Shown here in pieces: positions 1 to 16,621 of a stretch of 64,000 nucleotides of DNA (position 1 is its first letter; every line of letters begins with the position of its first letter). Source of the stretch: Pseudomonas moorei (GTDB taxonomy: Bacteria; Pseudomonadota; Gammaproteobacteria; Pseudomonadales; Pseudomonadaceae). The DNA is taken from positions 480,087 to 544,086 of the forward strand of contig NZ_VZPP01000002.1 of the NCBI RefSeq assembly GCF_008801475.1. The letters run 5' to 3'. Both the position numbers and the translations under genes were made by a program. A model generated the notes under the pieces. The model was not told the DNA's origin, did not search any database, and saw only the letters and a list, made by a program, of their open reading frames with translations.

Positions 1-1
1 A

Positions 2-439
2 TTACTTCGTGAAGAGCCTTTGGTAGAACGCTCATGGGCTGAAATTCAGCGCAAATCTGCATTGATTCAGCATCGAAAAAATTGGATGGCTACAGTTAAA
101 GAAACCACACACCCTAGCGCTAAGACTGTCCGCGCTCGCACCCCTGAGCTTTATGCATGGCTCTATAGAAACGATAAAGCCTGGCTTCTCTCGCAAACTA
201 CTAAATTACCTTCCGGTCGGATTGGAAATAATTCGCGTATCGATTGGGAGGCACGGGATGTAGACTTAGAAATATTCATTAGAAAATCCCTGATTGAAAA
301 GTTTGGAAGCGATAAAAACCTTAGATTAGATAATTTTGAGATCTTCTCCTTAGCTCCGACCCTATCATCTTGTTTAGAAAATAGAAGTCGATACCCTCGT
401 ACCCGCGCGTTGATTTCACTAATAAAAAAGAACAGTTAA
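2..439 (+). CDS. tnsD: TnsD/TniQ-family transposition protein, C-terminal part (5' truncated by window)
   Basis: The reading frame is open from the first bases and ends at TAA 437-439, leaving about 145 C-terminal residues. Motifs typical of the TnsD C-terminal region are visible: RTPELYAWLYRNDKAWL, followed by RIDWEARD about 30 residues later. In Tn7, TnsD binds the 3' end of glmS and recruits TnsC and TnsAB to attTn7, which fits the glmS gene at the other end of this island. Transcription runs toward glmS, opposite to tnsD in classical Tn7. The TTG at 20 is only an in-frame codon, not a likely start. The family is recognised from motifs only; whether the whole gene is intact cannot be judged. 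Confidence 0.72.
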   Translation, partial: LLREEPLVERSWAEIQRKSALIQHRKNWMATVKETTHPSAKTVRARTPELYAWLYRNDKAWLLSQTTKLPSGRIGNNSRIDWEARDVDLEIFIRKSLIEKFGSDKNLRLDNFEIFSLAPTLSSCLENRSRYPRTRALISLIKKNS

Positions 440-980
440 CCTGAGAGGAGCACCTGGTAAAAGTTACTAGTGTGAATTCGGACGGGGCGACCAGCTTTCG
501 GCGAGCATGGCGGCCACCGCTGCGGCCCGGCCGTGCCGACCACAAGCCGCTCCGTCCTGTCTGTACTACGACTTACCACGCCCTCCACACTGCGAGCTAA
601 AGAAGCGGCCGGATTAATCGACGCTGCCTTGCTAGTCCCCGACGATTAGGGTGCCGATATCTGGCAAAGCGTGGGCTCATAACCGCATGTTCCCACTACT
701 GCTCTATCACTCTCAATGATCGGAACAAGAAGGCGGCCAACCAAATATAGGATTTTCTAACGATATATAGTGAATTTTGCTACACATCGCTATATTTGCG
801 TATTGGTCGATCATCGCTATGAGCGTTGAATAAATTGCAGTGCAACGCGACAGGCAGCTCTTGGCCAGGTCCAGCCACTTGTGCGGGAGTGCCACGTAAG
901 CACCCTTTATCCGTTGATATAAATGCAAGCGCAGAGCCTCTAGCTCAGGCGTTCCCGGAATTTCTAGTCCTCCAAAAACG

Positions 981-1006
981 GAAAAACCGGCTAGCGCCGG
1001 CTTTTC
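981..1006 (-). terminator. Hairpin, probable terminator of the regulator-kinase operon
   Basis: An inverted repeat around a CCGGC/GCCGG core is followed on the minus strand by a T-rich run (TTTTTCCGTTTTT). It lies about 240 bp downstream of the kinase stop codon, so it could end that leftward operon. Confidence 0.5.
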
Positions 1007-1165
1007 CCCCCTCCAACCAGATGGTCAAGCCACGCCGGTCATGAGGGTTAGTTGTTGCGCGAACTATGGCGCAATAGAGGCCGTAATACAAGGGAACACA
1101 AAGCAGGCTACGACGCACGTCTGGTACTGGCCCGTCTCTGCCTTACGAAGGCGGTTCTGGCTTGG

Positions 1166-1209
1166 TTGCGTCCTTCGCGACAGGCACAAAACGGCCAAAA
1201 GCGGTCAAC
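1166..1209 (+). repeat. REP-like repeat, copy A
   Basis: Contains CGCGACAGGCACAAAACGGC and the following CAAAAGCGG. It resembles copies at 7007-7055 and 7746-7797, all in the same orientation, and belongs to a short intergenic repeat type common in Pseudomonas. Confidence 0.6.
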
Positions 1210-1245
1210 TGCAGTTAAAGGTTAGCGGCTACCTGCTTACCCAAT

Positions 1246-4200
1246 TCATTTATCCTGAATGAGCTGCAAGGCGCGATCAAAGTCGAACAGTTCCACCTGC
1301 GCCGCGGCGAGTGCCAGCCGTTCTGCCAACGCTCGATCAAGTGGCATATTGCGCAGTGCCGCCAGCACGTCCAAAGCCGTCGTATCACCCTCCTCCAATA
1401 GTCTGATCAGCCTATTCAGTTGCTCGCTGATTGCCGAGTCGTCCAGCGGATAGCCATCCATGGAGGCCGGTGTGTTTGCCTTAAGGTTGGCCAGAGCCGC
1501 CAGGGTCGGGAGCAAGGAATGCTCGACCTGCATCGCTAGCGCTTGCACTACCGAACCCGGCTCGCCGTTCTGGCAGGCCTGTTCTAACAACGTGCAAGCC
1601 TGCGCCACGGCCTTGGCGCCGATGTTGCCGGCGGTGCCGCGCAAACTGTGCGCCAGCCGTCCCGCGGCACCAGGATCCGGATCGATTCGTGCGGCCTGGA
1701 ATTGCTCCGCAAAGTCTGTCTGAGTATCGCGAAACTTGCAGAGCAGACGTAAATAGAGATCCCGCCGCCCCATGCAGGTGGCGAGACCCGCCACCACATC
1801 AATGCCCTCAAGACGATCTGGCAATCCATCGGCGAAGCCTGCGTTCAGCGGTGCTTGAGCGGCTCGTGGCTTGATCCACTTTGCCATTGTGGCGAACATG
1901 GTTTCGACATTCAGTGGCTTGGAGATATGGTCGTTCATGCCGCATTCGAGCGCACGCTCGCGGTCACCGTCCATAGCGTTGGCGGTCATGGCGATCACTG
2001 GCAGAGTGCTGAAGCGCAGTTGCTGGCGAATTTGCCGGGTGGCCGTGTAGCCATCCATCACTGGCATCTGGCAATCCATCAACACTCCATCGAAGTCGCC
2101 ATCCTCGCCAAGGATATCCAGGGCCTCTTGACCGTGCGTAGCGAGTCGCAAGCGTATGCCGACACTTTCCAGCAGTTCGCTGGCCAGTTCTTGATTTAGC
2201 TCATTGTCTTCGACCAAAAGCAGCCGGGCGCCGTTGAGACTGGCAACGGTACTGGCATTCTGTTGGGAGCGTTCGCCAGCCCGCGTATCGCTGTGGGTGT
2301 CTCTGCCCAGCACGACACCGATGGCTTCGAGTAACGATGACGGCGTGACGGGTTTGGTCAGTACCACCGGTAACTGGATGCCCTGGCGTTCGGCTTCTTC
2401 GCGGGCTTCTTCGCGGCCAAAAGCGGTGATCATGATCACCGATGGTGTGCGCATCAGACTCGCAGAATGCATTCTGCTCACGGCTTCCATGCCATCCATG
2501 CCCGGCATCCGCCAGTCCATCAAAACCAGATCGTAAGGCAGCCCCTTATGCTCGGCGTCGGCCAACAGGCGCAGCGCCAGACTACCGCTCTGCGCGACAT
2601 CCACTTCCAGGCCAAAGCTGCGCGCCATGCCCGAGAGAATTTCACGGGCACTCGCGTTGTCGTCCACGACCAGAACCCGCATGCCGAGCAGTTCGCCGGC
2701 CTTGAACATACGACGAGGTTGCAGTCCTTGCTGCACACCGAGTTGCATCTGGAAATGGAACGTGGAGCCGAATCCCGGCTGGCTTTCAACCCAGATTCGG
2801 CCGGCCATCAACTCCACCAGCTTCTTCGAGATGGACAATCCCAGCCCGGTGCCCCCGTACTTGCGCGTGATCGAACTGTCAGCCTGACTGAACGACTGAA
2901 ATAAGCGTGAACACTGCTCGACGGTCATGCCGATGCCCGTGTCGCGCACCCAGAAGTGCAGCTGCACGTGTTCGTTATGAGAAGCCATTTCTTCAACGCC
3001 GACCACGATCTCACCGTGTTCGGTGAACTTGGCGGCGTTGTTGCCCAGGTTGACCAACACTTGCCCCAATCGCAGGGGATCGCCAAGCAGAGCTGTGGGC
3101 AGGTCGGGCGGGATCTGAAATAACAATTCCAGCCCCTTGTCCTCGGTCTTCAGGCCGATCATGGCAGCGAAGCTGTCGAGCACATCTTCCAGTCGGAACG
3201 GGATCTGCTCGAGACTCATCCTGCCGGCTTCAATTTTTGAGAAGTCGAGAATGTCGTTGATGATGCCCAGTAGGTTCTCCGCCGAGCGGTGCACCTTTTC
3301 AATGTAATTGCGCTGGCGATTGTCCAGCGAAGTACGCAGCGCCAGATGGCTCATCCCGATGATGGCGTTCATCGGCGTGCGGATCTCATGACTCATGTTG
3401 GCAAGGAACTCACTCTTCGCTTGAGTGGCTTCTTCGGCCGCTGCTCGAGCCTCCGCCAGAGCCGTCACGTCGATGTTGATGCCGGTTGCGCGCAATGGCT
3501 TGCCGTCTGGTGTGCGTGAAAAACGGTTGAGCGAGCGGAACGTGCGCACCCGACCATCATTTTTGCGCACGATGCGAAAATCGAATTCGGCCCGATCATT
3601 GCCACTCTGGACGGCACTCTCGAACGTGCTGCTGACCCTCGCTACATCGTCGGGATGCACCAGCGCCTGCCAGTGCGCCAGCGTGCCACCGAAGCCGCCA
3701 GGCTCCAGACCAAACAGGGTTTCGAGCTGTGGCGTCCAATAATTTGTGCCGCTGACCAGATCGACGTCGAACAGACCGATGTCACCCGACTCCTGTGCCA
3801 GGTTCAGGCGATCGCTGGCAGTGCGCAACCTGGCTTCAATCGCCCTGCGCTCACTGACATCGCGCACCGAGGCGCACACGCAGACGCCACGCCCCTCCAG
3901 ACGGGGCAAGTGGGAAAGGCCGATTTCCACGGAGAACAAGCTGCCGTCCTTGCGCACGCCGCTCAGATCGTCCAGATCGCCGCCCATCTGCCGGGTTCCG
4001 CCGCTGGCAATGAAGCCGTCGCGTAACTTGACATGCCGCTCGCGGGCAGCCTGCGGTACCAGACGCTCAATGCTGGCGCCAATCAGCTCGCCGGGGGCGT
4101 AGCCAAACAGGGTGTCCATTTGCGGGTTGGTCATCAGGATGCGGCCATCGGCTCCCAGCACCAGCATGCCGTCCGGTGCGGCCTCGATGATGCCGCGATA

Positions 4201-5625
4201 CCAGGCCTCGGTGGCGCGCAGTGCTGCCTGCTGGGCCTCCAGCTCGCTGGCCTGGTGTTCCAGTTGCAAGGCTTGCGCGCCCATTTCGTCTGCCTGACGG
4301 CGAGTTTCCAGCAGCAGCGCCTGGGCTGCCTCACTGCGTTCCATAATGGCCATGGCACCGGCCAGCCTGGGCAGGACTTCTTGCAGCAGCAGCGCTTCGT
4401 TCTCTTCCAGTTGGCGAAAACCGGCCATTTCCATAACCCCGAGCAGGCGTTCGCCACGCAACACGGGCTGAACCAACAGGACGCTGGCGGGGGCTGCGCC
4501 CAACGGCGTACGCACATGCCAAAACGGTTCGGGTAGATCCTCAAGCTGACGAGGTTGGCGATCCAGCGCGCACTGGCCAAGCAACCCTTCCCCGAGATCT
4601 AGTTCTGTGGGTAGCGGGTGCGCACTGTCCACCGCATAACCGCTCACCAAGCGCAGGCGTGCCGCGCCTTCATAGAGAACGTAAAGCGCTCCTTGGCACA
4701 TGCCCAACTGCGGCGCGATGTGGCTGAAAAAAGCCTGAGCCAACTGCTGCGGCGTCTCCGCCTGTTGCAGGCCCACTTGCAGAAGTGAGGTGTGGTTTTT
4801 CACCCAACGCTGACGCTCAAGCTGACAAGCCTCCAGCTGCAGCGTGGCGATGGCACGCGCCAGGTCGCCGGTTTCGTTGCGAAGATCGGTGTGAGGGATC
4901 TGGCCGTCCAGCTTGCCGGACGCCAATTCGTCCACCGCCACGCGGACGCGATTCAACGGCACGCGAATCGAATAACTGACCAGCCAGGTCAACAGCAAGG
5001 CCAGCGCCGAACCACCCAGCAGCAAGATGTACGTGATCGCAGTACTGCGCTCTGCGTATTCCGCCAGGTTCTTCGCCGTATCGTGGATGTCGGTTTCCTT
5101 GTTTTTCTCGATCTGCGAGAGCAGCCCGTCGCCGCCCTGCTCCAGCGCAAGAAAATCCTTACTGTTGAGCAACATCAAGGCCTGTCCCAAGGAGCCCTTG
5201 CCAGCCAGTTCCAGTGCCTCATCGCCATTTTTTTGCAGACGCTGTAATAACACTTCGAATTCCACCAGGCTGCTGATGCTGCTCTGTCGGCGCAGTGTCG
5301 GACGAACCTGCTCCAGCGCTTCATGGAGTCGCTGTTGGGCGATATCCATCTGGGCTCTGGCGCTGATACGGATGTCCGCGTTGTTGGTAGCGATTGCACG
5401 TTGCATGGCGAGCAACAGATGCGGCAACTGCACCCGAACTTCCTGCACATGCTGAATACCCACCAGATCCTGCTGGTACAACTGCTGCATTTCATTTTTG
5501 AGCGAATACTGAGTGCGCAGGCTTTGCACACCCAATATCAGGATCAATATCAGCAGCGCAGCGAAGCCGATGATCAATTTACTGCGCAGAGACAGGCGCT
5601 CGAGCATCTCGAACAGTCTGTTCAT
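1246..5625 (-). CDS. Hybrid sensor histidine kinase (HAMP-GAF-PAS-PAS-HisKA-HATPase-REC-REC-HPt)
   Basis: A 1459-residue membrane-bound phosphorelay kinase. Transmembrane segments near 17-35 and 196-218 enclose a periplasmic helical sensor region. HAMP follows (219-272), then a GAF-like domain (about 290-430), a coiled coil (about 430-470) and two PAS domains (about 472-595 and 605-725). HisKA has H746 in SHEIRTP, and the ATPase has its N box near NNAAKF and DTGIGM. Two receiver domains follow (acceptors D1037 and D1184), then an HPt domain with H1326 in AHSLRG. All phosphotransfer residues are present. The gene starts 43 bp downstream of the HD-GYP regulator stop and is surely cotranscribed with it, so that regulator is the likely partner. 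The signal is unknown. Base use is Pseudomonas-like, unlike the AT-rich DNA to its right. Confidence 0.93.
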
Positions 5626-5668
5626 AAACGGCCTCTTTCAACGGGATGTGCAAACGGATGCGTGGGGC

Positions 5669-6826
5669 TCAGGGACGGTCGGCGATCTGCTCAAGCAGGG
5701 CTAACTGCCTGGCCATGTCCTGGTCGCTGTCGGCAAATTGTTCAGCAATTGCGCGGAACTGCTCGGCATTGGCGAGAAACGCGTCGCAGATGTCCGGATC
5801 AAAGTGCGAGCCCCGGCCTTCGCGGATGATTGCCACCGCCTGCTCATGGGACATGCCGGGCTTGTACACGCGGCGGCTGATCAGTGCATCGTAGACATCT
5901 GCCACCGCCATCAACCTGGCGCTGATCGGGATGTCGTCGGTGGCCACGCCTTGCGGATAGCCACTGCCGTCCCACTTTTCCTGATGGCCGTAGGCAATTT
6001 CCTTGGCCAAATGAAGGAAGTCGACGTTGATACCTAATTGATCCTCGGCGTGCTGGATGGCGTCGCGCCCTAACGTGGTGTGGGTCTTCATGACCTCGAA
6101 TTCCTCCGGGGTCAGGCGTCCCGGTTTGAGCAGGATACGATCGGGAATACCAATCTTGCCGATATCGTGCAGCGGGGCTGATTTGAACAGCAGTTTGATG
6201 GTGTCCTCGTCGAGGAAGTGACAGAAGCGCGGGTGATTGCTCAACAGTTCAGCCAGCCGTTTCACATAGTGCTGGGTTCGACGAATGTGGTTGCCGGTTT
6301 CGTTGTCACGGGTTTCCGCCAGCGAGGCCATGGCGTGGATCGTGACATCCTGGATGGCGATCACCTCCCGGGTGCGGCGCTGCACTTCCTGCTCGAGAAA
6401 TTCGTTCTGATTGCGCAGGAAATCGGCAACGGACTTGAGCTTGATCTGCGTCTCAACCCTGGCCATGAGCACGGGGGGAATGATCGGCTTGGTAATGTAA
6501 TCCGCAGCCCCCAGGCTCAAGCCGCGAATCTCGTCCTCCGTAGCGGTCATGGAAGTCAGGAAAATGATCGGTATGTGGCGAATGCGGGCATCACGTTTGA
6601 GCTGCTCGGCGACGTCATAACCGGACAGGCCCGGCATCATGATGTCCAGCAGGATCAGGTCGGGCAGTGGATCAGCCTGCAGAAGACGCAGGGCCTTCTC
6701 GCCGCTATTGGCGGCCTTGACCCGATATTTGTCCTTCAGCAACTCGGCGATCAACATCAGGTTGTCGGGGGTATCATCGACCACCAGAACGGTCGCTGAT
6801 GGATAAACGCCCTGAGTGCTATCCAT
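5669..6826 (-). CDS. Response regulator with HD-GYP domain (putative c-di-GMP phosphodiesterase)
   Basis: A 385-residue protein. The N-terminal receiver has acidic residues in VVDD and the acceptor D61 in LLDIMMPG. A linker coiled coil lies near 135-160, and an HD-GYP domain occupies about 165-365. The metal-binding HD pair is H220-D221 (LHDIGKIGIPD) and the GYP motif is at 289-291. HD-GYP proteins hydrolyse c-di-GMP; here the usual HHE triad reads HQE (281-283), so activity is uncertain. I chose the ATG at 6826 because AAGGGAG lies about 9 bp upstream and the receiver begins there; the frame is open further upstream without a sensible start. It is the first gene of an operon with the hybrid kinase. 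Confidence 0.9.
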   Translation of the reverse strand: MDSTQGVYPSATVLVVDDTPDNLMLIAELLKDKYRVKAANSGEKALRLLQADPLPDLILLDIMMPGLSGYDVAEQLKRDARIRHIPIIFLTSMTATEDEIRGLSLGAADYITKPIIPPVLMARVETQIKLKSVADFLRNQNEFLEQEVQRRTREVIAIQDVTIHAMASLAETRDNETGNHIRRTQHYVKRLAELLSNHPRFCHFLDEDTIKLLFKSAPLHDIGKIGIPDRILLKPGRLTPEEFEVMKTHTTLGRDAIQHAEDQLGINVDFLHLAKEIAYGHQEKWDGSGYPQGVATDDIPISARLMAVADVYDALISRRVYKPGMSHEQAVAIIREGRGSHFDPDICDAFLANAEQFRAIAEQFADSDQDMARQLALLEQIADRP

Positions 6827-7227
6827 GGTTGTTGGCTCCCTTGCCAGACAATTAACGAGTCGGCGTACTTGCACCAATCTCTTGCTGGCAAGCGTAGCTA
6901 GAAAAGCTGCAATCGCTAGGTGAAGATCGGCAGGTTGGTTCGAAGAGTCACTAAATCGAATGTCTGCTATTGGCCGATATTCGCCTGTCTCGACAGGCTG
7001 CAATGGGTCGATTTCTGCCGGTCACGACAGGCAGAAAACGGCCAATAGCAGACCATGGACACGCAGCTAACACGTCAGTAATGTGCTAAGTAATATGTCG
7101 CTTTCCCCCTTCTTGATGTCGCGTTTACAATTTCGATTTTTTGATTGCTCAAGGGATTACGCATGAACATAGGATGTTATGCCAAAAGCCGTTCGGCATC
7201 TAAAAGTTGAATTTAAGGAGCAATAAA
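6827..7227. other. Intergenic region with the regulator promoter, an inverted REP pair and a cassette boundary
   Basis: About 400 bp separate the leftward regulator from the rightward acetyltransferase. They hold the presumed promoter of the regulator-kinase operon (not resolved), an inverted REP-like pair (6961-7055) and, after a drop in GC near 7060, the GTTATGC sequence at 7176-7182 that matches an integron cassette boundary. Confidence 0.5.
6961..7055. repeat. Inverted pair of REP-like repeats (copy B is the right half)
   Basis: The left arm TGTCTGCTATTGGCCG (6961-6976) is matched by the right arm CGGCCAATAGCAGACC (7039-7054), with smaller inner palindromes such as CCTGTCTCGACAGG. The right half (7007-7055) is the same repeat as at 1166-1209 and 7746-7797. 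Confidence 0.75.
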
Positions 7228-7665
7228 ATGGAAATCAAGATTGATGTATTGGGTTCTCCAACAGAAAAGGATAAAGGAGTTCTGAATAATAGGTTTTCAG
7301 AATATCTTCGAATTCAATATCCAAATCTGCCACCAGAATCGGAAGATAAAATATTCATGGTGGTTGCACACGATGAAGTAGGCGACTACATCGGTGCAAT
7401 AAGCTGTAACTGTTACTGGGATGGCTTAGAAATTGACACCTTTTGGGTTAAGGAATCTCATCGCGGTAAAAAAGTAGGATCTATGCTTTTGGAAAAAGCA
7501 GAAGCGATTGGTGCCAACAATGGAGCAGTAGTTGCATTCTTAAAAACCGTTGATGCTAAAAAGTTCTATGAGCGGCATGGATATGAGATTTATGGTGTTC
7601 TTGAGGATCGCCCAATCGGGACTAACCTGTATCATTTAAAGAAACGGCTAGTAAAACATGCATAA
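7228..7665 (+). CDS. GNAT-family N-acetyltransferase
   Basis: A 145-residue protein with the acetyl-CoA-binding motif HRGKKVGSMLLEKA near residues 77-90 and a C-terminal AKKFYERHGYE segment typical of GNAT motif B. GNAT enzymes move an acetyl group from acetyl-CoA to an amine; the substrate cannot be told from the sequence. The start at 7228 has AAGGAG seven bases upstream. The gene is AT-rich compared with core genes and is framed by cassette-like recombination sites, which suggests arrival as an integron cassette. Confidence 0.85.
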   Translation: MEIKIDVLGSPTEKDKGVLNNRFSEYLRIQYPNLPPESEDKIFMVVAHDEVGDYIGAISCNCYWDGLEIDTFWVKESHRGKKVGSMLLEKAEAIGANNGAVVAFLKTVDAKKFYERHGYEIYGVLEDRPIGTNLYHLKKRLVKHA

Positions 7666-7731
7666 CAACTGGTTCAAATCGTTCACTTCGCTCAATGGGA
7701 CGGGCTAAAGCCCCCCTTAACCAAATGCTGG
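7660..7731 (+). repeat. attC-like (59-base element) site, 3' core degenerate
   Basis: It begins GCATAACAACTGGTTCAAAT, continues with CGCTTCGCTC-type and GGGACGGGCTAAAGCCC segments, and ends TTAACCAAATG. This order resembles attC sites of Vibrio, Shewanella and Pseudomonas cassettes. The final GTTRRRY core is not present. Confidence 0.55.
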
Positions 7732-7745
7732 TCAGAGTCCGCTTC

Positions 7746-7797
7746 GGGTCGACTACTGCCGGTCACGACAGGCACAAATCGGCCAGAAGCGGGCACC
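7746..7797 (+). repeat. REP-like repeat, copy C
   Basis: Carries CTGCCGGTCACGACAGGCAC followed by AAATCGGCCAGAAGCGGGCA, matching the right half of the 6961-7055 pair and the copy at 1166-1209 in the same orientation. It directly follows the attC-like site. Confidence 0.65.
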
Positions 7798-7829
7798 CAC
7801 TTCCGTCAAAAACTGAGACTGTAATTACT

Positions 7830-8706
7830 TTATTTGACCGCCAACATCGCCGATATTACTTTACGCATATTTTTGTTTCTGCCAAGTGAAAGTCGTGCAT
7901 AAAAATTCATTATATTTCTGATAAGCATATTTTTTGGCAATTCTTTGGCGAGATCTGATAATTTTTTATTTCCCGTTTTTTGAAAGTCATAACCATAATC
8001 ATTTAAAAATGACATCAAAGTAAAATGAAAGCCATTCAAGGCGTACCAGCGATTGCAACTCCGATCAGTCGAAATCCCGGAAAAATATCTAAACACAGGC
8101 GCAAATTCTATTTCAGGATTTTTATCTTTAAATTCGGAAAAATTTATAAACCCATTATCCCCCTCTAATTTATTAATGAGTTCTCGAAAATCATCTCCAA
8201 AAAAAATGATCGGTAGGTTTCGAATGGTCGTAATTTAGCCCTTCGAATATTCCGGCGTCACAGAAGAAATGCGGAAAGCACTTCAAATATTTAAGTAACT
8301 CTAGATCTTCTTTTGTACTTACCGTGCTATCTAGAAACACAAGTTCTAAATCGACCTTCCTGCAGATCGCAAAAAACAATAAAAACCTATAGCAAAATGA
8401 TTGCAAATAATACTTATCCTTAATTTGCTCATCGGCACTTTTAACATGCCAAGCTTCAGGCGCATTTTTAGAGAAATTCCAAAGTCGGTGATTAAGATAC
8501 TCTGCAGAATTTAGTAACGGCACTTTATATTTTGAGATAGCCTCTCTAACCCTCTTTCTTTGGTCGTATCTGTAATCGCTTTCTAGCTTGAATTTGTGGA
8601 AGCTTCGCTCCCAGACCGGTTTTGCCAGAGCTCGAAGAAATAGAACAGTTAATGTAGTCGACGCAGCAATTAATGCTGATTGAACATTTGGGTCGGTCAA
8701 ACTCAT
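7830..8706 (-). pseudogene. Hypothetical single-pass membrane protein, frameshifted in a T8 tract
   Basis: Two open frames read as one protein of about 290 residues if one base is added to a run of eight T (minus strand; eight A at 8199-8206 on plus). The first frame ends ...KPTDHFFWR. The second frame overlaps it and continues FGDDFRELINKLEG... to the stop at 7830 without a start of its own. The N-terminus has one transmembrane helix (ALIAASTTLTVLFLRAL), followed by a helical region with KYKVPLLNSAEYLNHRLWNF, a pattern seen in a widespread uncharacterised membrane family. The function is unknown. The shift may be a true mutation, a phase-variable tract, slippage during expression or a sequencing error. 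The gene is strongly AT-rich. Confidence 0.65.
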
Positions 8707-8812
8707 AAGTCAGCCTTCAATATATAACATTAAAATTTTTGACATGTGAATTACATGAAAATAGCAAATTAATCACTCCAGTGAATCATTAATAATTTTA
8801 GATCGAAATACG

Positions 8813-9094
8813 TCAGCTATAAACCGCTGATTTTAACCGAGCTCTTGTATCTTTCAGGGACAATAGGAAAATCTCGTCGTAACAGTTCGGCCAGCTCCTG
8901 ATGTTCATAGCACATCCGCTATCAGTAACTTCGATCTGGTTGTCGGTTCCATAATCCTTTCGGTCATAGGCCTGTAGCACAAGGACTTCGGAGGCTGATA
9001 TCAAACTTCGAAAAACCGCTTCCGCTCTGTCTTCCACTACATGATTAGTGTGACGTTTTGGAAGATCGTTGAAGTTACCAATTCTGTATCCCAA
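8813..9094 (-). pseudogene. DUF4365-like N-terminal remnant
   Basis: The translated segment RHTNHVVEDRAEAVFRSLI and, further on, DRKDYGTDNQIEV resemble the start of the DUF4365 domain, a nuclease-like fold found in accessory and defence-associated genes. After GCAMNIR the match stops, where VQLKG would be expected, and an unrelated tail leads to a stop. There is no ATG in the open frame; TTG at 9094 is the only plausible start. It is most likely the truncated 5' end of a lost gene. I recognise nothing in the 9095-9242 spacer. Confidence 0.45.
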
Positions 9095-9242
9095 GCACCA
9101 AGCATTTTTGTGGGAATAGTAGCAGGATTAGTGATGGCAATCGTTGCGCTGCAATCTGGACAATGCGCGAAAACAGCTAAATGCCGTGTCCAGCAGGTCT
9201 GACGCACGCTGCTGTGGCAGTTGTTTGGTAAAGTTTACGTTT

Positions 9243-10184
9243 CTAACTAACAAGGCTCGCACGTTTCTCTGTCATACTTTCGAACTGTAGCGACTTTTTT
9301 TCCAAGATATATTTGAAGGAGCGGATAAACTCTTCAAAGTCTGCGAACAACAAAAATATAAGTGTAGCGACAATGTAACAACACACCCTAAGATGTTCCG
9401 GCCCAAAGCTTAGATATGTTTTGATTTCATAGTGCAAATCAGATTTTGTCCAAGGAAACAAAACACGATCAAAACGAGAGTCAGTCACTTCATTCCACAG
9501 TTCTTTATATCGCTCATTACAATTTAGAGCGATTAAAAAAGATTCATAGGCGATTACGCAATCAAGTTTACGGTCAAAATTCAATATAGCTGCATTAAGT
9601 TTTGATCTTTTGAACTCCAAACTGCATTCATTGATCTCTGTTTCCGACTCTAGGATATACCTGCCGCATTTACAACCACTCCACAATACATTGAGGCAGT
9701 GATTTTCTACGCGAAAAGCACGATCACAGAATTGGCACTTCTTGAGTAATTTTACGTTATGTGTAGCGCAGACATTAATTTCATTTTGATGACTTCGCCT
9801 CCAAAAAGAGAAACCTACTCGTTCAATATCATCCTTTACACATTCGAGACATATAGCAACATTTTTACCCTTAGTAACATAACCAAAGTCACAGTTGCTC
9901 TTTTCTAGAAACCTGTGTCTCAAAAGCATAGATTCGACATCATCAACGATTAGACGATAACTAAAATAAACAGTGTGCTGCTGAACTAGCTTAATGAATC
10001 CGGCAAAGTGATGCCAGCTCATTAGATCTGCGACCAATATTAAGTCTTTGATCGACCATTCATCACCTTGCAATGACTTAAAAGGATCTTCGACTTCAAA
10101 TTTATCTTTTAAAAACAGCCTATTTCTTGAGATGTAAGAATCTAATGCCTCATCGGTTTGTATTTTTAAAAGCATATTAATCAC
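9243..10184 (-). CDS. TniQ-family protein (Tn7-like target-site selector homologue)
   Basis: A 313-residue protein with the zinc-finger arrangement of TniQ/TnsD: C112-x2-C115, then GFSFWRRSHQ, then C139, H142, C150 and C153. In Tn7-like elements such proteins choose the insertion site. It is shorter than TnsD (about 500 residues) and lacks the C-terminal RxDWxxRD region seen in the fragment at 2-439, so it may be a short TniQ or a decayed copy. The start is uncertain: GTG at 10184 or ATG at 10175, neither with a clear ribosome site. It lies 200 bp from the element end and reads away from glmS. Strong AT bias marks it as foreign. Confidence 0.72.
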   Translation of the reverse strand: MINMLLKIQTDEALDSYISRNRLFLKDKFEVEDPFKSLQGDEWSIKDLILVADLMSWHHFAGFIKLVQQHTVYFSYRLIVDDVESMLLRHRFLEKSNCDFGYVTKGKNVAICLECVKDDIERVGFSFWRRSHQNEINVCATHNVKLLKKCQFCDRAFRVENHCLNVLWSGCKCGRYILESETEINECSLEFKRSKLNAAILNFDRKLDCVIAYESFLIALNCNERYKELWNEVTDSRFDRVLFPWTKSDLHYEIKTYLSFGPEHLRVCCYIVATLIFLLFADFEEFIRSFKYILEKKSLQFESMTEKRASLVS

Positions 10185-10388
10185 AATTAGCGAATTTGGC
10201 TGTCAGCGCTATATTAATAGAAACGCGATATTCGCCTCGGTAAAACGAAAGAAAGGGAAGAGGGCCCCCTGCTTTAGGTTCTCAGCGACTCAAAGCATCG
10301 AGGGGGCAGTCCCGTCTCGAACTGAAACAGACCTTCTCAACGGCAGTTCTCGCAACGCAAGGAGACGAGCGGCACCTCCCTGCGTGTT

Positions 10389-10434
10389 GCGACAGTTTTT
10401 ATTGTTCCGCGACAGTTTTTATTGTCTAAAACCA
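10389..10434. repeat. Tn7-like transposon end with two tandem TnsB-type sites
   Basis: GCGACAGTTTTTATTGT occurs at 10389-10405 and again at 10409-10425, a 20-bp period. Read from glmS, each copy is ACAATAAAAACTGTCGC, close to the GACAATAAA core of Tn7 TnsB sites. The outer copy lies eight bases inside position 10434, as in Tn7 ends. Position 10434 is 25 bp from the glmS stop, the Tn7 insertion point. The terminal bases read TGG rather than the usual TGT. The target duplication would be AGGGT (10435-10439) if the end is placed correctly. Confidence 0.72.
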
Positions 10435-10458
10435 AGGGTTCGATCAGCTGTGGATAAC

Positions 10459-12291
10459 TTATTCCACAGTCACCGATTTCGCCAGGTTGCGTGGCTGGTC
10501 AACGTCGGTGCCTTTCAGCACAGCCACGTAGTACGACAGCAGCTGCAGCGGGATGGTGTAGAGGATCGGCGACAGGATGTCGTGGATGTGCGGCATATGC
10601 ACAACGTGCGTGCCTTCACCATTGGTCATGCCAGCCTGCTCGTCGGCGAAGACAATCAGCTCGCCACCACGGGCGCGGACTTCCTGAAGGTTGGACTTCA
10701 GTTTTTCCAGCAGCTCATTGTTCGGCGCAACGGTTACGACTGGCATGTCGTTATCCACAAGCGCCAACGGACCGTGCTTCAGCTCGCCAGCCGGATAAGC
10801 CTCGGCGTGAATGTAGGAAATCTCCTTGAGCTTGAGCGCCCCTTCCATCGCAACCGGGAATTGCGCACCACGTCCGAGGAACAGGGTGTGATTTTTTTCG
10901 GCGAACAACTCAGCGATTTTCTCCACGGTGCTGTCCATGGCCAGCGCTTCACCGAGGCGGGTTGGCAAGCGACGCAACTCTTCGACCAGCGTTGCTTCAA
11001 CGCTTTTGCTCAGCGTGCCGCGCACCTGCCCCAGAGACAGGGTCAACAACAGCAATCCAACCAATTGCGTGGTGAAAGCTTTGGTCGAGGCCACGCCGAT
11101 TTCGCGACCGGCCTGGGTCAGCAAGGTCAGATCGGATTCTCGCACCAGCGAGCTGATGCCGACGTTACAGATTGCCAGGCTGGCGAGGAATCCCAATTCC
11201 TTGGCGTTGCGCAGCGCGGCCAGAGTGTCGGCGGTTTCGCCGGATTGGGAGATGGTCACGAACAGTGTGTCCGGCTGTACCACTACCTTGCGGTAGCGGA
11301 ATTCACTGGCAACTTCGACCTGGCACGGAATGCCAGCCAGCTCTTCCAGCCAGTAACGAGCGACCATCCCTGCGTGATAGCTGGTGCCGCAGGCGACGAT
11401 CTGTACGTTGCGTACTTTGGCGAACAGCTCGGCCGCTTGTGGACCGAAGGCCTGCACCAGGACTTGAGTTTGGCTCAGGCGCCCTTCCAGGGTTCGCTGT
11501 ACAACAGACGGTTGCTCATGGATTTCCTTGAGCATGAAATGACGGAACTCACCCTTATCGGCCGCTTCTGCGCCATCACGGTACTGGACGGCTTCGCGCT
11601 CGACCGCCTTGCCGTCAACGTCCCAGATATGCACGCTGTCGCGACGAATTTCGGCGATATCGCCTTCTTCCAGGTACATGAAGCGGTCGGTGACCTGGCG
11701 TAACGCCAACTGGTCGGACGCGAGGAAGTTTTCACCCAGCCCCAGACCGATCACCAATGGGCTGCCACTGCGGGCAGCGACCAGGCGATCTGGCTGCCGA
11801 GCACTGATCACTGCCAGGCCGTACGCACCGTGCAACTCTTTGACAGTTGCCTTGAGGGCTGCGGTCAGGTCTTCCAGGTCCTTGAGTTTGTGGTCCAGCA
11901 GGTGGGCGATGACCTCGGTGTCGGTGTCCGAAGTGAAGGTGTAACCCAAGGCTTTGAGCTGTTCACGCAGGGCTTCGTGGTTTTCGATGATGCCGTTGTG
12001 CACCACCGCCAGGTCGCCGGAAAAATGCGGGTGCGCATTACGCTCACACGGGGCGCCATGAGTCGCCCAACGTGTGTGGGCGATACCCAAACGACCAACC
12101 AGCGGCGCTTCGGCCAGGGCCAGATCCAGCTCACTGACTTTGCCCGGGCGACGCAGGCGTTCCAGTTTTGCGTCATTGGTGTAGACCGCCACACCGGCGC
12201 TGTCATACCCACGGTATTCCAGACGCTTCAGGCCTTCGACCAGGATGGCGGTGATGTTACGTTCTGCGACGGCGCCGACAATTCCACACAT
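10459..12291 (-). CDS. glmS: Glutamine-fructose-6-phosphate aminotransferase (isomerizing)
   Basis: A 610-residue cytoplasmic enzyme that makes glucosamine-6-phosphate from fructose-6-phosphate and glutamine, the first step toward UDP-GlcNAc for peptidoglycan and LPS. The N-terminal glutaminase starts MCGIVGAV with nucleophile C2; two SIS sugar-binding domains follow, and the C-terminus ends LAKSVTVE as usual. AGGAGA lies upstream inside the end of glmR, whose stop is one base away. The 3' end is the TnsD-binding part of attTn7, and a Tn7-like end lies 25 bp beyond the stop codon. I saw no glmS ribozyme, as expected outside Firmicutes. Confidence 0.98.

Positions 12292-15217: not shown

Positions 15218-16621
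<1,404 letters not shown>

Follow-up and report, generated by a model that had tools for sequence, protein, structure and literature searches.

A Tn7-like transposon family ending beside glmS in Pseudomonas and flanked by 4-bp target duplications

Tn7 carries tnsABCDE, has box arrays and TG/CA-type termini at its ends, and inserts just downstream of glmS with its right end towards that gene. In a broad definition set out in part of PMC8649781, Tn7-like elements are recognized by a TnsB lineage, terminal inverted-repeat arrays, TnsC and TnsD; boundaries are found there through the repeat arrays, and Gabija is among the cargo listed. Passages of PMC11406308 give a 5-bp duplication as the rule and describe orientation control, seemingly in all relatives. 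Elements of the dual TniQ-TnsD type, described for 998 loci in a section of PMC10293859, and CRISPR-associated transposons (CASTs; I-B, I-D, Tn7017) combine a long TnsD with a short TniQ. We analysed a 64-kb stretch of DNA, hereafter the window (G000:C2:480087-544086), together with 40 kb more read leftward, for which negative coordinates continue the window numbering. The element described here, E2, resembles Tn7 in its TnsA, TnsB and TnsD, related by profile, in its terminal box arrays and TG/CA-type ends, and in its position just downstream of glmS with the right end facing the gene. Unlike Tn7, its family carries 4-bp and not 5-bp duplications, the E2 ORFs scanned include none matching TnsE, a further core-only TniQ (TniQ2) lies at the right end, and tnsABC does not start at that end. 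The pair of long TnsD and short TniQ is shared with the dual TniQ-TnsD elements and CASTs, from which E2 differs in having no CRISPR genes among the ORFs scanned, in the tie of TniQ2 to the right end, and in the 4-bp duplication.

At the right end, we identified two exact tandem copies of GCGACAGTTTTTATTGT with a 20-bp period (letters of the window), and these 17-nt boxes start 70 and 50 nt ahead of the glmS stop codon (Table 1). No further copy with up to three mismatches was detected in the 64-kb window, and shuffled sequences gave a mean of 0.13 matches, with two copies in 0 of 100 shuffles. The tandem repeats noted earlier are thus exact, and their proposed role as TnsB-binding sites is kept as a prediction. 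The earlier note had set a Tn7-like end at the classical point 25 bp past glmS; E2 does stop at 10434, with 24 nt (10435-10458) between its end and the stop codon. The terminal TGG, which had seemed to depart from the usual TGT, is real: read inward, right termini of the family are TGG, TGA or TAG, in which they differ from Tn7, and left termini are TGA, TGG, TGT, TAA and others. The C-terminus of TnsD had also been recognized at the left edge of the window, and positions 1-10434 had been taken as part of one Tn7-family element. Positions 2-439 indeed encode the end of a 541-aa TnsD starting at -1186, and the leftward check found tnsABC and a matching left end at -19798. Assignment to the Tn7 family stood, with the correction that E2 belongs to a distant branch and is not Tn7 itself; this status, a second stacked element and the length of the duplication had been missed.

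Table 1. Position of the features of E2 and of its target gene within the window
Feature	Position	Strand	Remarks
tnsD, C-terminal part, predicted glmS-site selector	1..439 (gene -1186 to 439, 541 aa)	+	Pfam TnsD E 2.6e-19
Cargo: hybrid histidine kinase	1246..5625	-	absent from the matches listed for the relative elements searched
Cargo: response regulator with HD domain	5669..7003	-	relatives give partial 35-41% matches only
Cargo: GNAT acetyltransferase	7207..7665	+	domain match
Cargo ORF, no family match	8191..8706	-	domain scan
TniQ2, 313-aa core-only TniQ, predicted second target selector	9243..10184	-	Pfam TniQ E 6.5e-6; relatives' profile against Tn7 TnsD (8glu) E 2.2e-6; position kept
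Inner predicted TnsB box, E2 right end	10389..10405	-	GCGACAGTTTTTATTGT on +; position kept in relatives
Terminal predicted TnsB box, E2 right end	10409..10425	-	9 nt from terminus
9-nt right terminus	10426..10434	-	CTAAAACCA on +; 5'-TGGTTTTAG read inward; last base of E2
Right copy of the 4-bp target duplication AGGG	10435..10438	.	left copy beyond the window edge, ahead of the left end at -19798
glmS, target gene	10459..12291	-	ORF; matched at 85-95% identity in relatives

The end finder delimited E2 as -19798 to 10434 (30,233 bp) and, stacked behind it, a same-family remnant, E1, as -24546 to -19802 (4,745 bp). The left-end boxes of E2, opposite in orientation to the right boxes, start at -19789, -19731 (weak) and -19678; those of E1 start at -24537 and -24425, and its glmS-facing right-end boxes lie just before -19802. 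The left end of E2, tnsABC, most of tnsD and the Gabija operon are located outside the window. From left to right, the matched ORFs of E2 encode a DUF4238 protein, an Abi_C/AbiJ-like protein, a GNAT protein, GajA, GajB, TnsC, TnsB, TnsA and TnsD, followed by the signalling pair, a second GNAT protein and TniQ2. GajA and GajB gave PADLOC E-values of 2.8e-218 and 4.1e-229, and this Gabija operon (L003:9458-13287) appears complete as cargo. The signalling operon (1246-7003) was considered as transposon core and rejected: no kinase match of at least 35% was listed outside G000 in the stretches searched, and among the matches listed in a second search, overlapping weaker ones aside, none reached 40%. 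E1 retains both ends, a 143-aa tnsA fragment, a 535-aa TnsD (Pfam TnsD E 1.6e-35, TniQ E 1.5e-10) and a 381-aa TniQ2; tnsB and tnsC were looked for in E1 and not found. The last base of E1 is the A of the left AGGG copy of E2, and the fourth base of the right duplication copy of E1 is now read from the first base of E2. Compared with the older E1, E2 likely inserted one base more distant from glmS, so that its target AGGG took in the final base of E1. To the left of E1, we observed a terminator-like inverted repeat (L002:15417-15446, window -24583 to -24554). Its counterpart stands directly behind glmS in L039, where no end was called; in G000, E1 and E2 part the repeat and glmS by about 35 kb.

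The transposition proteins were compared with those of Tn7. TnsA and TnsB of E2 gave no match in Pfam (E 0.01) or NCBIfam (E 0.1). At the profile level, TnsB (profile A6) matched Tn7 TnsB (7pik) at E 3.1e-11 and TnsA (profile A4) matched Tn7 TnsA (1f1z) at E 1.9e-6. Residues D310, D397 and E431 of TnsB and E59, D140 and K160 of TnsA, which we take to be catalytic, were invariant in 16 of 16 sequences each. TnsA is accordingly a predicted endonuclease by both profile and invariant residues. The integrase-core Pfam family was listed for none of 20 TnsB relatives at E 0.1, and Mu-transpos_C appeared weakly in two. A 448-aa protein at the expected position is the candidate TnsC; its match to Pfam AAA_22 (E 7e-4) does not reach the curated threshold. 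Among the E2 ORFs scanned, that is, all but the short ones and two longer ones, neither a Pfam match to TnsE nor a match to cas genes was found, and the only cas-related signal in E2 was a set of weak PADLOC TniQ-model matches to TniQ2.

By TnsB at E <= 1e-60, the family was detected in 28 of 398 genomes of the genus, the window's own included; an order-wide draw at E <= 1e-20 gave 2 of 293, namely the genome of the window and one other of the same genus. The TnsB alignment comprised 44 loci in named genomes, 34 from Pseudomonas and 10 more distant (27-38% identity; Burkholderiales and others, with L152 and L154-L159 at 33-37%), and a single-sequence TnsB scan of genome contigs gave no match. 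Wherever glmS was present in the stretch of a tested genome (17 of 17), a transposon end was located 22-26 nt from the glmS stop: 15 family right ends, one family left end (G292) and one end of another family (G149). The element in G292 (L095-L097) is reversed, with its left end towards glmS and a 4-bp duplication, GTTT, and so orientation control in the family is not absolute. A comparison of glmS loci, as the earlier note had advised, gave script-called Tn7-like ends before glmS in 12 of 30, at 16-25 nt from the gene, and none called in 18. By eye, L038, L046, L051 and L057 among the 12 are of the GTGTCAA type, and the uncalled L054 resembles a family end. At L118 (G022:C16, near 15500-15600), two right ends stand 86 bp apart before glmS with one TniQ2; tnsABC was not found in the 20 kb fetched, and this double end is perhaps a decayed stacked remnant.

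Members of the family also enter plasmids. One transposon was found in G057 (at glmS), in pCIP and in G686, its copies being 99.97-100% identical over shared blocks that measure up to 28 kb each and total 34.9-40.1 kb, at three sites with the duplications GCTG, CAGA and GCGC, respectively. As a flank of the G686 copy matches a plasmid at 99.6%, we infer that this contig is a plasmid. Among 72,556 plasmids, matches covering at least 80% of TnsB were found in five, of which CP027478.1 (62%) and NZ_CP087161.1 (57%; tnsB split by an IS5-type transposase) are family members. On the latter, which is conjugative, two elements of the family lie 3.7 kb from each other (82270-138496), the first with copper and arsenic resistance genes and the second with a type I restriction system.

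We then determined the length of the target duplication. At both ends, we took as terminus the TG or TA (read inward) that lies 9 nt beyond the terminal box, which gave a fixed register. Left ends were picked by box score and not by duplication, except that the right end of G200 and the control ends were chosen by eye and motif; for G694 the higher-scoring of two candidates was taken. Among 29 family elements with both ends, 27 had an exact 4-bp duplication, one had 5 bp and one had none, while mispaired flanks matched at 4 bp in only 4 of 812 pairs. The 5-bp case (CAAGC) is G192, in which tnsB is broken and another right end abuts the left end (L110, L111, L176, L177); the case without duplication is G690 (L150, L226, L227). 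Including the second pCIP element, which was found with its duplication as an aid and afterwards borne out by its empty site, 28 of 30 had 4 bp. These 28 duplications comprise 26 different 4-mers, indicating that they are mostly separate insertions. One-ended members were left out of the count, among them G214, G616, G280, G272, G006, G009/L132, L119, L121, L123, L137, L138, L151 and L153.

As controls, Tn7-like elements of other families in the same host genus were examined. Of ten control genomes, seven had a right end only and were unmeasured (G005, G059, G251, G040, G211, G101, G105); G139, G032 and G087 were measured, together with the other element of G149. In the same register, with the 9-nt spacing from box to terminus as set here, 5 bp was observed in four of four (4 bp:5 bp, 27:1 in the family vs 0:4 in controls; Fisher p 1.4e-4). 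G032 and G149 are inserted at glmS, as E2 is, and no glmS was found in the available sequence of G139 and G087. The ends of G139 and G032 are of GTGTCAA type, their TnsB being only 26% identical to that of E2, and further box variants occur in G149 and G087.

For E2 alone, AGGG and AGGGT fit equally, because the next target base is T. The earlier note had proposed looking for AGGGT beside a matching inverted end; a duplication is indeed present there, and its length is taken as 4 bp, AGGG, because this is the pattern of the family. The data could alternatively reflect an ordinary Tn7-like 5-bp duplication with the left terminus set one base wrong, the element starting GAATTT. In a one-base shift test, this would fit 10 of the 28 duplications in all, that of E2 in G000 included, and its mirror version, with the right terminus moved further in, would fit 11 of 28. 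Neither version can be the rule of the family, since 18 and 17 of the 28, respectively, contradict them, and 12 rule out 5 bp under either shift; AGGGT was accordingly rejected as a family rule. Exact empty plasmid sites gave the same answer. The site of the first pCIP element is occupied in pSTY by a single CAGA, that of pKor in pRBL16 by a single GAGA (40-nt flanks identical), that of G686 in p716811-VIM by a single GCGC, and that of the second pCIP element in NZ_CP083747.1 by a single CCAG. All four fit 4 bp; those of pKor and the second pCIP element rule out 5, while the other two also fit 5 bp with a shifted terminus and are not decisive alone. With the 5 bp of the controls read in the same register, a misplaced terminus is very improbable.

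Still less probable is a genomic island placed next to glmS through homologous recombination or by a site-specific integrase, the repeats being due to chance or otherwise unrelated. Homologous exchange between stacked elements could account for G192 and G690, but the matching inverted ends, the 4-bp duplications, tnsABCD inside and the occurrence of the same ends at unrelated plasmid sites all speak against such an island, and the exact empty sites already disfavour it. These observations altogether make us highly confident that the repeats form the right end of a Tn7-like transposon of 30 kb, which stops 24 nt from the glmS stop codon, and that its predicted TnsA-TnsB transposase likely joins with a 4-bp stagger, as 4-bp direct repeats flank the members of its family. 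A Burkholderiaceae relative (L154:17648-17653) has two back-to-back ends separated by exactly 4 nt (GTGA), a hint that the deeper clade including this relative also makes 4-bp duplications. No report of a 4-bp Tn7-like duplication was found in the titles and abstract starts of the open-licence literature, a search that is not proof of absence. A copper Tn7-like element of P. syringae, reportedly described by Aprile et al. in 2021, may be a known member of the family with a reported duplication.

TniQ2 was scanned in 40 sequences, which gave 37 family right-end rows, 36 of them distinct (G009 and L132 are one locus); six sequences had no right-end call and three other right-end rows belonged to other families. 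Each of these 36 right ends has a TniQ2 match that starts 111-458 nt inward and points away from the end. G022 has two ends ahead of one TniQ2 gene, and tnsB reads the opposite way in six (G149, G006, G122, G192, L133, L137). TniQ2 consists of a zinc-finger core with no match to the TnsD-type C-terminus. Both its position and its domain content, in line with the dual TniQ-TnsD pattern, suggest that TniQ2 is likely a second target selector. It is nevertheless a serious possibility, to which we give a little less than even weight, that the element jumps in the normal Tn7-like way and that TniQ2 modulates transposition, acts as an immunity factor or is a relic kept because of its place beside the right end. 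TniQ2 evolves fast, its copies being of variable length and sharing 23-28% identity with that of E2; no partner protein was identified, and a regulator that senses TnsB at this end would be well served by the fixed place, too. Against such roles, all 19 sequences compared have the WRR motif and the cysteines presumed to bind zinc, family members enter plasmids with no TnsE match among the E2 ORFs scanned, and short TniQ proteins are held, in the same section of PMC10293859, to mark elements with an extra selector.

From the ends, duplications, empty sites and near-identical copies at different sites, all observed directly, a course of transposition may be proposed. TnsD would likely bind the 3' end of glmS and recruit TnsC, which would activate TnsA and TnsB. 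Bound to the 17-nt boxes, two in tandem at the right end and two or three over about 130 bp at the left, TnsB would transfer the CA-3' ends to target positions 4 bp apart; TnsA would cut the other strand, so that the element moves as a simple insertion, and repair of the 4-nt gaps would leave the duplication. Other targets, plasmids among them, are likely reached when TniQ2, which reads inward from the right end, recruits this TnsABC. Because insertions of the family are nearly always flanked by 4-base repeats, as against 5-base repeats for Tn7 relatives, the machinery that cuts probably works to another spacing. An analogy from an unrelated element is offered by the murine leukaemia virus-type integrases, members of a DDE strand-transfer family whose relatives do not all have the same stagger length; the comparison is with retroviral integrases of 5 bp.

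The E2 family is Tn7-like by its proteins, ends and target. It has a Tn7-related TnsB with DDE residues, inverted box arrays at both ends and a TnsD/TniQ selector, as in the broad definition. Of the canonical features of Tn7 in the passages of PMC11406308, a predicted TnsA relative and insertion with the right end to glmS are present and the 5-bp duplication is not; cas effector genes, which define CRISPR-associated transposons, are absent from the E2 ORFs scanned. The family is thus a variant beside canonical Tn7 and not Tn7 itself. We see an even chance that it represents a TnsE-free branch of Tn7 whose strand-transfer complex has been re-set to a 4-bp stagger and which commutes between glmS and large plasmids, using TnsD for glmS and the core-only TniQ, in cis at the right end, for plasmids.

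The 5-bp duplication serves as a signature of Tn7 relatives, reflecting how far apart the two transposase active sites lie on the target, and a 4-bp branch breaks this rule. Boundary finders demanding 5 bp would miss such a branch. Through the short TniQ at their right end, the plasmid pathway of these elements becomes open to direct test, and the natural pair of 4-bp and 5-bp elements, both at glmS in one genus, offers a way to find what sets the spacing.
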